This document shows, in pieces, positions 4,475-24,012 of a DNA stretch of 64,000 bases. Made by a program: the position numbers and the translations under genes. This DNA is from an uncultured Gemmatimonadota bacterium. GTDB taxonomy: Bacteria > Gemmatimonadota > Gemmatimonadetes > Palauibacterales > Palauibacteraceae. Under the pieces are notes generated by a model. It was not told where the DNA came from. It made no database searches and saw only the letters and a list, made by a program, of their open reading frames with translations. Position 1 is the first letter of the stretch. Each line of letters begins with the position of its first letter. The stretch is from the NCBI GenBank assembly GCA_913043255.1, contig CAJWLK010000001.1, positions 248,001 to 312,000 on the forward strand, given 5' to 3'.

Positions 4475-4557
4475 CGGAGGGGGCGGGATTCGAACCCGCA
4501 TGTCCTTGCGGACGCCGGTTTTCAAGACCGGTGCATTAGCCGTTCTGCCACCCCTCC
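4475..4557 (-). tRNA. tRNA-Ser (anticodon UGA)
   Basis: Read on the minus strand, the gene begins GGAGGGG and ends CCCCTCC plus discriminator G, giving a seven-base acceptor stem. The anticodon arm is CCGGT-CTTGAAA-ACCGG with TGA in the loop. A long variable arm (GTCC-GCAA-GGAC) marks a class II serine tRNA. The T arm is GCGGG-TTCGAAT-CCCGC. CCA is not encoded. It lies between the convergent BKACE and signal peptidase genes, with no sign of an integrated element next to it. Confidence 0.95.
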
Positions 4558-10057: not shown

Positions 10058-11254
10058 ATGCCAATATCCGTCGATAGTACCCACCTAACTCGCTCGCTCG
10101 CCGAACTTGTAGCGACGAACTCAATAAACCCATCACTGGTGCCCGAGGCTGATGGCGAGGCTGCGATTGCCGACGTTACCGCTCGTCATATGCGTGAAGC
10201 AGGACTTCAGGTCGAACGGTATGAACCCAAACCTGGGCGTCCGAGCCTGATAGGCCGGTTAGTCGGGACTGGCCAAGGACCAACCCTCATGCTCAATGCC
10301 CATTACGACACCGTGGGTGTTGAAGGGATGCAGGCACCATTCAATCCCATAATTGAAAACGACCGACTCTATGGTCGTGGCTCATATGATATGAAAGGAT
10401 CGCTGGCCGCATGCATCGAAGCAACGCGTGCAATTGCTATGAGTGAACAGGCATTAGCTGGTGATGTACTAATCGCTGCGGTGGCGGACGAAGAGTACGC
10501 AAGTATTGGGACAGCTGACCTTTTGGTACGCCGTGAACGAGGCGAACTAGACTTCGACGCGGCGATTGTCACAGAACCCACTTCCCTAGCCCTTTGTGTA
10601 GCTCATCGAGGTTTCACTTGGCTAGAAATCGAGACACAAGGACTCGCAGCTCATGGAAGTCGATACCACATCGGCGTCGATGCCAACATTCGTATGGGGC
10701 GCGTACTCCGAGAACTCGAAGCCCTGTTATCCGACCTACAGGCCAGACCAGGGCACCCGTTACTTGGGCCTCCGTCTCTACACGCCTCGATGATCGAAGG
10801 CGGCGTCGGGATCAGTACATATTCACCAAGCTGTAAACTTAAAATTGAGCGACGGACGGTTCCACCCGAGAGTCAAAAAACAATTGAAAACGAGATAGTC
10901 AACCTACTCGACTCACTGCAAGACGATGACCCGAACTTCGAGGCCACCTGGAAGACATCCTTTCACCGAGATCCATTTGAGACCCTACCTGATGCCCCAA
11001 TTGCACGCTGCGTATCGACCGCCGCCGCTGGAGTCTTGGGAAAGCAGCCTGACGTCATAGGGGACTCGGCGTGGATGGACTCAGCACTAACATCCGAGGC
11101 TGGTGTCGATACCGTCGTTATCGGACCGCACGGGCAGGGAGCCCATGCAGCGGTAGAGTGGGTTGATATTACTTCATGTGTTCAACTCGCAGAGATCCTA
11201 GCGCACGCTGCAATTGACTTCTGTAACCAAGGTGTGGATCGGCAAATTGCCTGA
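10058..11254 (+). CDS. M20 family metallopeptidase (ArgE/DapE-like)
   Basis: A 398-residue cytoplasmic di-zinc hydrolase. The M20 signatures are all present: NAHYDTV (His82, Asp84), GSYDMKGS with the bridging Asp111, and ADEEYAS with catalytic Glu145 and ligand Glu146. EPTS near 175 and HGQGAHAAVEWVD near the C-terminus supply the remaining ligands. The insert between about 185 and 290 is the usual dimerisation domain. ArgE and DapE remove N-acyl groups from ornithine and diaminopimelate; more distant members cleave dipeptides or carbamoyl amino acids. The gene has no biosynthetic neighbours, so a catabolic deacylase is as likely as a biosynthetic one. It is convergent with an amidohydrolase gene four bases away. 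Confidence 0.87.
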   Translation: MPISVDSTHLTRSLAELVATNSINPSLVPEADGEAAIADVTARHMREAGLQVERYEPKPGRPSLIGRLVGTGQGPTLMLNAHYDTVGVEGMQAPFNPIIENDRLYGRGSYDMKGSLAACIEATRAIAMSEQALAGDVLIAAVADEEYASIGTADLLVRRERGELDFDAAIVTEPTSLALCVAHRGFTWLEIETQGLAAHGSRYHIGVDANIRMGRVLRELEALLSDLQARPGHPLLGPPSLHASMIEGGVGISTYSPSCKLKIERRTVPPESQKTIENEIVNLLDSLQDDDPNFEATWKTSFHRDPFETLPDAPIARCVSTAAAGVLGKQPDVIGDSAWMDSALTSEAGVDTVVIGPHGQGAHAAVEWVDITSCVQLAEILAHAAIDFCNQGVDRQIA

Positions 11255-11258
11255 TTTC

Positions 11259-12800
11259 CTACCAAGCGTGGCCCTTACCCGGCGTCGAGAAAATTCGCTC
11301 GTAAGGGAGCGCATCTAGATCGACAACTGTGCCGTTCCGAATCACCGCATGAATCGCCCGGATGTTACTGATGTCTTCCAAAGGATTCGCATCTAGAATC
11401 ACAATGTCTGCATACTTTCCAACATCAAGGGTGCCCAGTTCATCAAGCATCTTGCACGCGATAGCGCCATTGCGAGTGATAGCAACGATCGCTTCCATCG
11501 GTGTCATCCCGAGTTCTACTAAGCCCTCTGTCGCAATCACACTCCCAATACCAAATGACTGATTCTCGAATTTGACTTCGCGACGCAGTTCGGGGGCACT
11601 CCCCAAATAATTGTCTGTACCGATCGTAGTCACGCACCCATTGGCGATGAGCTTCTCCGCGTTCACCCGACGAATTCTGATCCGGTCGCCTTTAGCTCGG
11701 CCCTCCGCCCGGCGCTCCGCTGAGGTTAACTCCAATCCATCGCGACGGCGTCCATGTTCATCGGCTGCCGTCATCTTCTCCCGCTCTTCAAGATGTCGTT
11801 CCCACGCAGGTCCAGCGACCGTATTCGCGATCATGGCACACACAGTTCCGCGTTCAACGATCTCTTTCACTAGTGCGTCCGGGATCTCGTTTGGGAGAGC
11901 TTCGGGGTGCTGAATTAGATCGACACCTGCTAGAACTGAGATCCAAAGACCCTCTGGACTCGTCGAGTGAGTTTCAGCAACAAGTCCGCGTTTATGAGTC
12001 TCCTCGACCAAAACTTTTTGTGCATCGGGAGAGAACCCGATCATAATCACTGCGTTTGAATGGCTCGTGCCCCCATATTTTATGAAGTTGGGACCTATGT
12101 CTAGGTAATCATTGATTGCTAGACGAAGATTTTCGGATTCCATGTGCATCAACTCTTCACCCGAGCCCTGCGTGATGAAGTCGTTGAACTGTTCCTGAAA
12201 CAAGGTCAAACCTTCTTCCCGTGTACCTGAAAACGTTTCAGAATACGGCCCGCCCCAGCCTACAATATTCCCCGCCACCAGCATCCGAGGACCGACGGTA
12301 TCACCGCGTGCGATTGCGTCACGAATCTGTATGAGTGGAATCAGTGATCCATAGCTGTCGCGCACGGTGGTGAACCCATGTTTGAGCTGAAGCTGAGCTG
12401 CTTCGAGCGTGAGATTCGCATTCATGTTCTCGTAGCGCACCAGAGTCTCATGCAAATCGAGGTGACGGGAAGCAGGACCAGATCCATACAAGGATAAGTG
12501 AACGTTACTGTCGATGAACCCCGGGGTTATGTATTTCCCGGCACCGTCAATCACCTGAGTTCCATCTGGAATCTGGACTGAAGACCTCGGACCAACAGCA
12601 AAGATTCGTTCCCCTTCGATTACGAGCGTCCCATCTGGGATTGGAGGGTTCCCATTTCCATCGATGATGGTGACTCCCACAATGGCAGTCATTTCTCCCG
12701 GTTCTTGGCAGACCACATATCTCGGAGTGGACACAACAAACACCAACACAAGCGTGAATAACAACGCGGGTACGCGATCCGGGAGGATTCGATGGAACAT
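11259..12800 (-). CDS. Exported amidohydrolase (imidazolonepropionase-like) with altered HxH motif
   Basis: A 513-residue metal-dependent amidohydrolase with a Sec signal (hydrophobic 12-25, cleavage near VVCQ). GGAG lies six bases before the ATG. The N-terminal beta-sandwich reads GVTIIDGNG, and the C-terminal one closes with LGTLDVGKYADIVILDANP. The barrel keeps ETHSTSPEG, IQHPEALP and TIGTDNYLG. The first metal motif is GFIDSNVHL, so Asn replaces the first His of HxH. This may define a subfamily with a different or single metal site. Family members hydrolyse cyclic amides, dipeptides or N-acyl amino acids. The gene precedes no clear partner; the PQQ dehydrogenase gene lies upstream about 80 bases away on the same strand. 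Confidence 0.83.
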   Translation of the reverse strand: MFHRILPDRVPALLFTLVLVFVVSTPRYVVCQEPGEMTAIVGVTIIDGNGNPPIPDGTLVIEGERIFAVGPRSSVQIPDGTQVIDGAGKYITPGFIDSNVHLSLYGSGPASRHLDLHETLVRYENMNANLTLEAAQLQLKHGFTTVRDSYGSLIPLIQIRDAIARGDTVGPRMLVAGNIVGWGGPYSETFSGTREEGLTLFQEQFNDFITQGSGEELMHMESENLRLAINDYLDIGPNFIKYGGTSHSNAVIMIGFSPDAQKVLVEETHKRGLVAETHSTSPEGLWISVLAGVDLIQHPEALPNEIPDALVKEIVERGTVCAMIANTVAGPAWERHLEEREKMTAADEHGRRRDGLELTSAERRAEGRAKGDRIRIRRVNAEKLIANGCVTTIGTDNYLGSAPELRREVKFENQSFGIGSVIATEGLVELGMTPMEAIVAITRNGAIACKMLDELGTLDVGKYADIVILDANPLEDISNIRAIHAVIRNGTVVDLDALPYERIFSTPGKGHAW

Positions 12801-22030: not shown

Positions 22031-23485
22031 ATGAAACCCGTAAGCTCTATACCTCCTGACGGACTGATTGCCGTAGTCAAAGAGGACTGCCCAACATGTC
22101 GGCTTGTCGAACCAGTGCTACAGCAAATCGGATCGACAAAGCGCGGGATCGTGGTGTATACACAAGACGACCCGACGTTCCCATGCGATGTGCCTCAAGT
22201 GATTGACGACCGAACGCTCAATACTTCTTTCGACCTTGAGATTGAGACCGTACCTACCTTAATCCGGCATGAAAATGGGCAAGAAGCTGAAAGGGTAGTT
22301 GGGTGGAACCGCGCTGATTGGCAACGTGTAACGGCGGTCGCTGACCTTGGCGAGGAACTACCAGCGCATCAGCCAGGCTGCGGTTCTAGATCTATTGAGC
22401 CTGATGCGACATACAAATTACGAGCTCGTTTCGGGGATACGGGAATTCGTGCTCGTAGGATCCAGGTCGACCAATTTGAAGATGAGATAGAAACCTGTTT
22501 TGATCGAGGTTGGAGTGACGGCCTACCCGTAGTCCCTCCTACGCCTGAACGGATTCTTCGTATGCTGGAAGGGACTTCACGAGCACCCGATGAGATCGTC
22601 GGCCAGGTACCACCCGACCTAGCGCCATGCACGATAGAGCGGGTCGCAATCAACGCCGTGATGGCAGGCTGTTTACCCGAATACATGCCAGTGGTACTTG
22701 CTGCGCTTGAGGCAGCACTGGAGCCAAACTTCACTCTGCACGGGATCCTGTGCAGCACATGTTTCACGGCCCCACTAATTATCGTCAATGGCCCGATCAC
22801 AGAGAAGATCGGGATGAATTCGAGCCTCAATGCATTAGGCCAGGGTAACCGCGCTAACGCAACCATCGGTCGAGCTCTCAACTTGATTGTGCGAAACGTA
22901 GGTGGAGGCCGACCCGGAGAGATCGACCGCTCGACATTCGGGGCTCCGAGTAAATACACATTTTGTTTTGCTGAAGATGAATCAGACCCAGAGTGGCAAC
23001 CACTTTCCGTAGCTCGCGGAGTCACTTCTGGTGCAAATGCGGTCACCCTATTCCAGGGCGAAGGAGTTCAGGGCATCCTCGACCAGCGCTCACGAACCCC
23101 CCGCGAGCTCACTCGGTCACTTGCAGCGGGGCTTCTCGCCGTGTGCCACCCACACATCTGTGAGTGGGCACACGCAGTGCTCGTCATTTCCCCCGAACAC
23201 TATTCCATCTTCCGGGCAGCGGGTTGGGATCGTGATAGAATTACCGATGCGTTGTTCGAGGCGACAACACGGAATGGTGAGGACGTCGTGCAAGGGGCCG
23301 GTGGTATTGCCGAGGGAGTACCTAAGAATCGGGCGGGTGAAATGGTACCAAAGTTCCCACCTGATGGGCTATTACTAGTCCGGGCCGGCGGACAAGCCGG
23401 ATTGTATTCAGCCATCTTGGCGGGGTGGCCAGGTGGCCGGGCATACAAAGAGTCACACCCCATCACAAGAGAGATAATCGAATGA
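22031..23485 (+). CDS. Thioredoxin-fold protein with UGSC-associated domain
   Basis: A 484-residue cytoplasmic protein. Residues 1-105 look like a thioredoxin fold: strand GLIAVVKED, redox pair C20-P-T-C23, then the cis-proline phrase TVPTLI at 73-78. The rest (about 145-484) is a conserved-looking domain without a function I can name: GWSDGLPVVPPT at 160-171, NAVMAGCLPEYMPVVL, a second CxxC (C241-S-T-C244), VNGPITEKIGMNS and RANATIGRALNL. GGAG lies five bases before the ATG. Its stop overlaps the start of the next gene by four bases (ATGA), and that gene encodes a UGSC selenoprotein. A redox partnership, with the thioredoxin part reducing or delivering electrons to the selenocysteine site, is a reasonable inference. 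Confidence 0.8.
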   Translation: MKPVSSIPPDGLIAVVKEDCPTCRLVEPVLQQIGSTKRGIVVYTQDDPTFPCDVPQVIDDRTLNTSFDLEIETVPTLIRHENGQEAERVVGWNRADWQRVTAVADLGEELPAHQPGCGSRSIEPDATYKLRARFGDTGIRARRIQVDQFEDEIETCFDRGWSDGLPVVPPTPERILRMLEGTSRAPDEIVGQVPPDLAPCTIERVAINAVMAGCLPEYMPVVLAALEAALEPNFTLHGILCSTCFTAPLIIVNGPITEKIGMNSSLNALGQGNRANATIGRALNLIVRNVGGGRPGEIDRSTFGAPSKYTFCFAEDESDPEWQPLSVARGVTSGANAVTLFQGEGVQGILDQRSRTPRELTRSLAAGLLAVCHPHICEWAHAVLVISPEHYSIFRAAGWDRDRITDALFEATTRNGEDVVQGAGGIAEGVPKNRAGEMVPKFPPDGLLLVRAGGQAGLYSAILAGWPGGRAYKESHPITREIIE

Positions 23486-24012
23486 ACGTCGAATCCACTG
23501 TACTCCACGATCCCACTTCCGAATTCGCACCGGTTAATCAGCCGAGGCGGCGACCACCCACATCCCTCAAAGGAAAAATCGTCGCACTCCAAGACATCGG
23601 GAAGCTCCGAAGCGACGAGTTTCTAGACTACATCGAGGAAGACCTAAACCGACGTGGGATCAAAACTCTTCGCACAGCTAAACCCACTAACGCGAAGCGA
23701 GCCCCCGTAGAGATCCTCCAAAAGATCGAGAAGGAGGCCGACGTAGTGGTGCAAGCATTAGCCGATTGAGGTTCGTGCACATCATGCGGTCTGCATGACA
23801 TCAAAGACTTGGACAAACGTGGGGTGCCCGGCTGTTTTGTAGTGACGACAGAGTTTCGAGATGCTGCGGCAAGCCAATCGCATTCCCTCGGCTTCGAGCC
23901 CGCGATCGTATGGGTCTCGCACCCAATCCAGAACCGATCGCCTCAAGAACTTGAGGCAATCGCTGCGAAAGCTATTGACCCTATCCTGTCTATGATCACA
24001 GAGTCCACCTGA
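23482..24012 (+). CDS. UGSC-family selenoprotein (TGA at 23767-23769 read as selenocysteine)
   Basis: Read through the in-frame TGA, this is a 176-residue protein with selenocysteine at position 96 in the motif D-U-G-S-C-T-S-C-G. That is the signature of the UGSC family, a selenoprotein family first noted in marine metagenomes. The frame stays open for 80 more codons past the TGA and keeps protein-like features: GLHDIKDLDKRGVP, VVTTEFRDAAA, then a Pro-rich loop and helix to the end. A stem-loop of the bacterial SECIS kind follows the TGA. The start overlaps the upstream thioredoxin-fold gene by four bases. The catalytic role is not established; a redox or reductive activity is likely. SelA, SelB, SelD and tRNA-Sec are not in this window and must exist elsewhere. 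Standard gene calling would split it. Confidence 0.85.
23767..23800 (+). promoter_or_regulatory. Candidate bacterial SECIS element
   Basis: Immediately after the TGA (23767-23769), TCATGC at 23782-23787 pairs perfectly with GCATGA at 23793-23798 around the loop GGTCT. The apical loop starts 19 bases after the TGA and carries G residues, as expected for a SelB-binding bacterial SECIS hairpin. It lies within the coding sequence. Confidence 0.6.

Follow-up and report, generated by a model that had tools for sequence, protein, structure and literature searches.

The window analysed here, a stretch of 64,000 nucleotides from an uncultured Gemmatimonadota bacterium, holds a genuine UGSC-family selenoprotein gene in which an in-frame TGA encodes selenocysteine (Sec), an assignment that sequence comparison with relatives confirms. 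The gene starts within the stop codon of an upstream partner gene (Table 1), and the two products probably make up a single thioredoxin-dependent enzyme. We computed the conservation of the TGA and the selection past it, the complement of Sec machinery, the UGSC fold, and the recurring links to the partner and to thioredoxin. The family and its use of Sec are already published, and the window gene adds one member.

Table 1. Features of the UGSC locus, in coordinates of the window.
Feature	Position	Strand	Remarks
Partner gene, 484 aa	22031..23485	+	N-terminal thioredoxin-like domain and C-terminal domain of about 330 aa with DGLPVVPPT signature
CPTC redox motif, partner residues 20-23	22088..22099	+	C20, T22 and C23 invariant in 13 aligned partners
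Partner C-terminal domain	22493..23482	+	homologous to stand-alone and fused paralogues
ATGA overlap	23482..23485	+	selenoprotein start within partner stop
UGSC-family selenoprotein gene	23482..24012	+	176 residues, Sec is residue 96; PF24696 match
In-frame TGA read as Sec	23767..23769	+	kept in relatives; Cys codon there in non-Sec forms
Candidate bSECIS hairpin	23782..23798	+	stem 23782-23787/23793-23798, loop GGTCT; comparative support

An in-frame TGA in a UGSC-family gene

The selenoprotein frame opens with an ATG at 23482, reaches the TGA at codon 96 and continues through 80 open codons to a terminal TGA at 24010-24012. Around Sec the product reads ALAD-U-GSCTSCGLHD, that is U96-G-S-C99-T-S-C102. 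An earlier sequence-only reading had placed D-U-G-S-C at residues 95-99, with GSCTSCG and 80 open codons after the TGA, and both the frame and its translation agree. An open frame past a TGA is weak evidence alone because such frames are not rare in the window, where 94 of the 2273 TGA stops in six frames have 80 or more open codons after them and 5 of these 94 also have 95 or more before them. The strength of the Sec assignment is thus carried by homology and not by the open frame.

Membership in the UGSC family, also proposed in that reading, is clear from PF24696, which matches residues 8-173, across the TGA, with 114.5 bits against a gathering cut-off of 25 (E 7.7e-33). The U/C-G-S-C motif is present, and U96, G97, C99, C102, H105, D106, H147 and P148 are invariant in 19 aligned proteins. 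The equivalog model NF041046 gave 122.1 bits against a cut-off of 125 (residues 31-172, profile positions 2-146 of 147); with the Pfam cut-off passed and the motif in place, we read this shortfall of 3 bits as probably reflecting a tight cut-off and not non-membership. The marine metagenome origin that had been given for the family agrees with the part of PMC2398784 available to us, in which the family was described from ocean metagenomes.

The codons after the TGA are, judging by substitution ratios, under purifying selection. The pN/pS ratio of the 77 codons past the TGA was 0.20-0.37 in all eight comparisons with relatives and was lower after the TGA than before it in seven, the exception being locus L017. 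The dN/dS ratio was about 0.08-0.16 in the six of eight comparisons with a computable dS, which is saturated.

A conserved hairpin after the TGA

The perfect six-pair stem with a G-bearing loop that had been reported 13 bases after the TGA was seen in full: the arms TCATGC and GCATGA form six Watson-Crick pairs around the loop, and the first stem base is the thirteenth after the TGA. Folded alone, the hairpin was not significant in any of three stretches (z −0.7 to −1.5; 15 to 41 of 200 shuffles fold as well), and the predicted single-sequence fold takes another register of the 5' arm. Comparative analysis was carried out on 26 chosen contexts (24 of them distinct), from which L066 and L067, neither of which fits the hairpin, were left out. 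In these, 97.2% of cells pair, and the covariation score was 0.197 against 0.094 in shuffles, a value reached by 0 of 500 shuffles. Slid-partner controls pair in at most 47% of cells, and at two true pairs both bases have changed. When the count is extended to all 54 distinct contexts and takes in L066 and L067, pairing is seen in 310 of 324 cells (95.7%). In L064 and L065, a codon change from Cys to Trp (TGC to TGG) is matched by a change from G to C on the opposite arm.

Codon choice was tabulated over the same 54 distinct contexts. The stem serine is TCG or TCA in 45 of 45 cases, whereas the serine of the GSC motif is spread over TCC (21), AGC (10), TCG (8), AGT (8) and TCA (2). The stem cysteine is TGC in 49 of 49, against 45 TGC and 9 TGT for the first cysteine. 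The rows are phylogenetically related, and these pairing and codon figures do not translate into a clean probability. On this comparative support we regard the hairpin, conserved across relatives, as a candidate bSECIS element.

Selenocysteine machinery and distribution among relatives

The window's genome comprises 2.45 Mb in 28 contigs and is 93.9% complete. A search for the Sec machinery, on which the sequence-only reading had let the assignment depend, returned the whole set of tRNA-Sec(UCA), selA, selB and selD. The tRNA-Sec, with anticodon TCA, was found by ARAGORN and by the Rfam tRNA-Sec model at 74.1 bits. This Rfam model is unspecific: 5 of 14 control genomes also score above its cut-off, as does a second site in the window's genome. 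The selA model gave 500.6 bits and is specific, just one of 14 control genomes scoring above its cut-off; selB gave 361 bits and selD 371.8 bits, the latter with an in-frame TGA of its own at GAG-U-GCK. The only tRNA found in the window itself is a tRNA-Ser(TGA) at 4475-4557 on the minus strand, which weakly matches the tRNA-Sec model, just below cut-off.

UGSC was found in 17 of 60 related genomes, with exactly one in-frame TGA in each match. The carriers are the window's genome, 15 of 16 others of the genus and one from another family of the class. The selA model exceeds its cut-off in 51 of the 60 and in 16 of the 17 carriers (all save G006), so UGSC is distributed more narrowly than the machinery. 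Among 385 genomes of the class to which an alphaproteobacterial relative belongs, 99 of 104 UGSC matches carry one in-frame TGA; at most eight candidates were scored per genome and these counts are lower bounds. One alphaproteobacterial genome, G064, has eight or more UGSC genes, 8 of its 19 candidates having been scored; all eight have the TGA. In a motif search, 24 of 25 loci had the TGA at this codon, and the remaining locus, L033, which that search missed, has one TGA at the corresponding place. Non-Sec forms have a Cys codon at the Sec position, as in L112-L115 and in seven of eight plasmid homologues.

UGSC together with the partner domain was found in Gemmatimonadota, Proteobacteria, Actinomycetota and haloarchaea, and plasmid loci tie UGSC to named isolates, with the Sec form in Acidovorax sp. 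T1 and Paracoccus ferrooxidans and the Cys form in Roseovarius sp. THAF8 and Variovorax sp. SRS16. On Acidovorax sp. T1 plasmid p2-T1 (L123:6995-7522), the Sec-form gene is annotated as a 97-codon hypothetical CDS, and the partner domain comes after it. On P. ferrooxidans plasmid pFER4 (L136:5435-7092 and 10407-12182), the UGSC gene is divided at the TGA into two annotated hypothetical proteins; the partner adjoins UGSC, and the plasmid also carries selB, about 3.3 kb downstream. The haloarchaeal plasmids L124, L128, L129 and L130 carry Cys-form UGSC with one or two partner genes, variously in the vicinity of genes for CoA transferase, CoA ester lyase, LLM oxidoreductase, DUF6282 and TRAP or MFS transporters, and these loci look like catabolic gene clusters.

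The loss of such genes to standard annotation had been foreseen: gene callers end the window gene at the TGA, the Acidovorax CDS stops there and the Paracoccus gene is cut in two. Such annotations are what one would expect if translation really ended at the TGA or the TGA were a sequencing error, the gene then being a pseudogene or coding for a protein of only 95 residues. Homologues ending at that position would have pointed the same way; instead they continue past it, with one in-frame TGA in all 17 related matches and in 99 of the 104 alphaproteobacterial ones. Together with the purifying selection past the TGA, the conserved hairpin and the full Sec machinery, this makes a stop or an error scarcely credible, and we rejected a plain stop codon or pseudogene on the conservation of the TGA in relatives and the selection after it.

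A partner gene that accompanies UGSC

The ATGA overlap is expected to couple translation of the two genes, and in relatives the partner stop likewise lies near or overlaps the UGSC start. The window's genome has one copy of the partner C-terminal domain. In all 25 loci of one set, to which the window's own locus belongs, this domain adjoins UGSC or is no more than about 1 kb away, and the same was observed in further sets: 29 of 30 loci, 12 of 13 loci (in the single miss the contig breaks off within the locus) and 8 of 8 plasmid records. The sets overlap a little: L009 and L021 are one contig, judging by length, as are L010 and L022, L081 is the same place as L064, and L050 and L068 likewise coincide. 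All eight scored UGSC genes of G064 have the partner domain, which in L064, L066 and L067, all from that genome, is fused to UGSC in one chain. At L066:4468-7678 the fusion gene precedes another gene with the partner domain and one resembling thioredoxin reductase, the latter scoring below the TrxB cut-off. Cys-form UGSC keeps the partner too (L112-L115 and seven plasmid records). The exception is L087/L121, where a UGSC selenoprotein gene has no partner domain within about 5 kb on either side.

The partner gave sub-threshold thioredoxin matches (TIGR01068, 22.1 bits; Pfam Thioredoxin, 15.7 bits), the latter being its only Pfam match at E up to 1, and its domain of about 330 residues had none. 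PDB sequence searches and Foldseek searches of the partner returned thioredoxins for the N-terminal domain and no clear match for the C-terminal domain, the model of which is mediocre (pLDDT 74.5). Fold matches to fumarate hydratase were set aside (TM 0.17-0.20 on the query). A fusion of UGSC to a domain named 'Unknown_1' was already noted in 2008, in the portion of PMC2398784 open to us, and the partner C-terminal domain is perhaps that domain. The overlapping partner gene and its functional bearing are an addition beyond the earlier sequence-only reading.

Thioredoxin supply across clades

Text patterns were used to sort 62 partner proteins, a count that omits duplicates, open-ended rows and matches that do not reach profile position 300 (for this early end the L066 and L067 fusions, L115 and one part of L074 dropped out). 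An N-terminal thioredoxin (Trx) site was present in 32, a C-terminal C-x-D-C tail in 17, both in none and neither in 13; four incomplete rows were counted as Trx forms after CPTC was found, and the partner N-terminus of L025 and L088 lies outside the sequence covered. In the partner tree all Trx rows fall within one 33-row group (SH-aLRT 96). The four changes that the tree gives for Trx are inflated, a narrower text pattern having labelled L011 and L099 as 'none'. The split between Trx domain and tail follows clades and amounts to a few events, not 49.

Genes resembling trxB were present in 6 of 14 plasmid loci, a count that includes a match at the edge of L132, about 5 kb from the partner; six of these 14 loci were fetched through the partner, and five of the six hold UGSC. 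A trxB-like gene was also found in one of eight wide loci of G064 and G062, among which L068 is a Trx-fused form. None was seen in 8 Trx-fused wide loci, 21 own-genome loci, 12 PrdB-like loci or the window, in a comparison where the lengths of case and control loci are unequal (193, 81 and 85 kb against 72, 39 and 64 kb). A thioredoxin-reductase model was the best match for all six trxB-like genes checked; L126, L131 and L133 pass the TIGR01292 cut-off, and L066, L125 and L135 miss it. The gene order is trxB-trxA-partner-UGSC in Arthrobacter, trxB follows UGSC in Roseovarius, and Variovorax SRS16 has trxB three genes ahead of the partner. These trxB-bearing loci belong to other clades than the window's and are mostly Cys forms. 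Near the Trx-fused form no other gene recurs consistently across phyla, and the neighbours gave no consistent hint of a substrate.

Predicted fold of the UGSC protein

An AlphaFold2 model of UGSC, built from 19 sequences, has a pLDDT of 91.9 and a pTM of 0.85. Its elements run beta-alpha-beta-alpha-beta-[Sec]-alpha-beta-alpha-beta-alpha, or (beta-alpha)5, with Sec96 after strand 88-94 and before helix 97-112. The fold is thus predicted with confidence to be flavodoxin-like. The best 50 of 1873 Foldseek matches in the PDB (E up to 10) were TIR, flavodoxin, SRP-GTPase, lumazine-synthase and similar alpha/beta proteins, with no thioredoxin among these 50; TM scores among the matches listed were low, 0.31-0.52 on the query. 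A PDB sequence search gave a best E of 0.16. In the text of PMC2398784 that could be consulted, UGSC is grouped with likely thioredoxin-fold redox proteins; given the (beta-alpha)5 model and the lack of thioredoxins among the matches listed, we rejected a thioredoxin fold for the modelled protein.

A proposed two-subunit selenoenzyme

We favour, as the probable reading, that UGSC and the partner constitute one thioredoxin-dependent two-subunit selenoenzyme that has Sec96 as its nucleophile and works in the manner of GrdB and PrdB. The UGSC selenoprotein would be made together with the partner, and both would belong to one enzyme. Sec96, which sits where the third strand of the flavodoxin-like domain ends, would attack a substrate bound by UGSC, by the C-terminal domain of the partner or by both, and the product would leave. 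Sec96 would then be held in a selenenylsulfide with Cys99 or Cys102, to be reduced by the CPTC site of the partner's fused thioredoxin domain, which the cell's thioredoxin reductase would in turn recharge. The pair would thereby work like the selenoprotein-B reductases without being one. What we infer in this scheme is that the two proteins form a complex, that electrons flow in this direction and that the reaction is reductive. With rather less assurance, we suggest that UGSC and the partner domain could represent a widespread class of two-subunit, thioredoxin-driven selenoenzymes and Cys enzymes that cleave small molecules reductively, as GrdB does, outside classical Stickland fermentation, with diversified substrates and, in the window's clade, the electron donor fused into the partner.

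UGSC might instead be a redox relay or a peroxide or repair enzyme that exchanges thiols with another protein, the partner only supplying electrons. U-x-x-C is a common redox motif, a thioredoxin link would suit any thiol-dependent enzyme, and the placement among likely thioredoxin-fold proteins in the accessible part of PMC2398784 fits such a role, but the modelled UGSC fold is not that of thioredoxin. At least eight Sec paralogues with the partner in one genome would fit diversified substrates better than a general relay, and the plasmid neighbours (CoA transferases, transporters and lyases, mostly with Cys forms and in other clades) suggest the same, and we consider a relay unlikely. Less likely still, and rather improbable, is that these proteins act on C-X bonds without net reduction, as lyases or transferases, with thiols only keeping Sec reduced; genes of the isocitrate lyase/PEP mutase family, CoA ester lyase and CoA transferase are indeed among the neighbours, but we would argue that a dedicated Trx domain or a nearby trxB exceeds the usual need for maintenance. 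The literature covered, to which subscription journals contributed little, held no paper connecting UGSC with thioredoxin reductase or with a partner operon. For the two-subunit selenoenzyme that we favour, the near-constant partner, the thioredoxin link and the corrected fold prediction turn an 'unknown redox protein' into testable biochemistry.

Comparison with known systems

The window gene shares with the UGSC family of PMC2398784, as far as the text available to us describes it, a near full-length match, D-U-G-S-C and UxxC; it differs from the fusion noted there in that the partner stands as a gene of its own, with a thioredoxin domain. A UxxC redox-type motif is also common to UGSC and to thioredoxin-fold selenoproteins (Prx-, Trx- and Grx-like), from which the window protein is set apart by its predicted (beta-alpha)5 flavodoxin-like fold.

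GrdB carries UxxCxxC (PMC13188914, consulted in part), a spacing that UGSC has in U96-C99-C102. Around Sec, the window protein matches the GrdF, GrdH, GrdB and general selenoprotein-B models at E 3.5e-4 to 9e-3, and 10 of 19 UGSC members match TIGR01917 (GrdB) at E up to 0.1, with a best value of 7.5e-4; two match PrdB. These values are near noise because unrelated models reach E 0.002 for single UGSC members, as fumarate reductase models did for one member in the same scan. In hhalign, the Sec of UGSC falls on the Sec of a PrdB-like profile (P 5.8e-4, probability 29%). Membership in GrdB or PrdB was rejected, the scores being far below the family cut-offs (16.8 against 602.2 bits for TIGR01917 and 15 against 65.45 bits for TIGR01918). 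We read the likeness as one in the way of working and perhaps as remote homology, not as membership.

PF07355 had no match in the window's genome, and 15 of the 19 genomes searched have matches. In UGSC-carrying genomes, GRDB-like (PF07355) frames run through a TGA at LLPV-U-PxC at L100:1122-2393, L102:1156-2478 and L104:1270-2466; the products are apparently PrdB-like selenoproteins. How wide the substrates of GrdB-like enzymes might be is illustrated by fluoroacetate-degrading bacteria, for which the section of PMC10838667 that we could consult proposes GrdB-related genes in C-F bond cleavage.

UGSC has weak profile matches around Sec in common with GrdB (TIGR01917, PF07355) and PrdB (TIGR04483), but it is a small single-domain protein, and no other Grd or Prd subunit was identified with it. 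The clostridial grd operon has its own trxA and trxB, according to the available text of PMC10880999, and this thioredoxin system parallels the thioredoxin link of UGSC and its partner.
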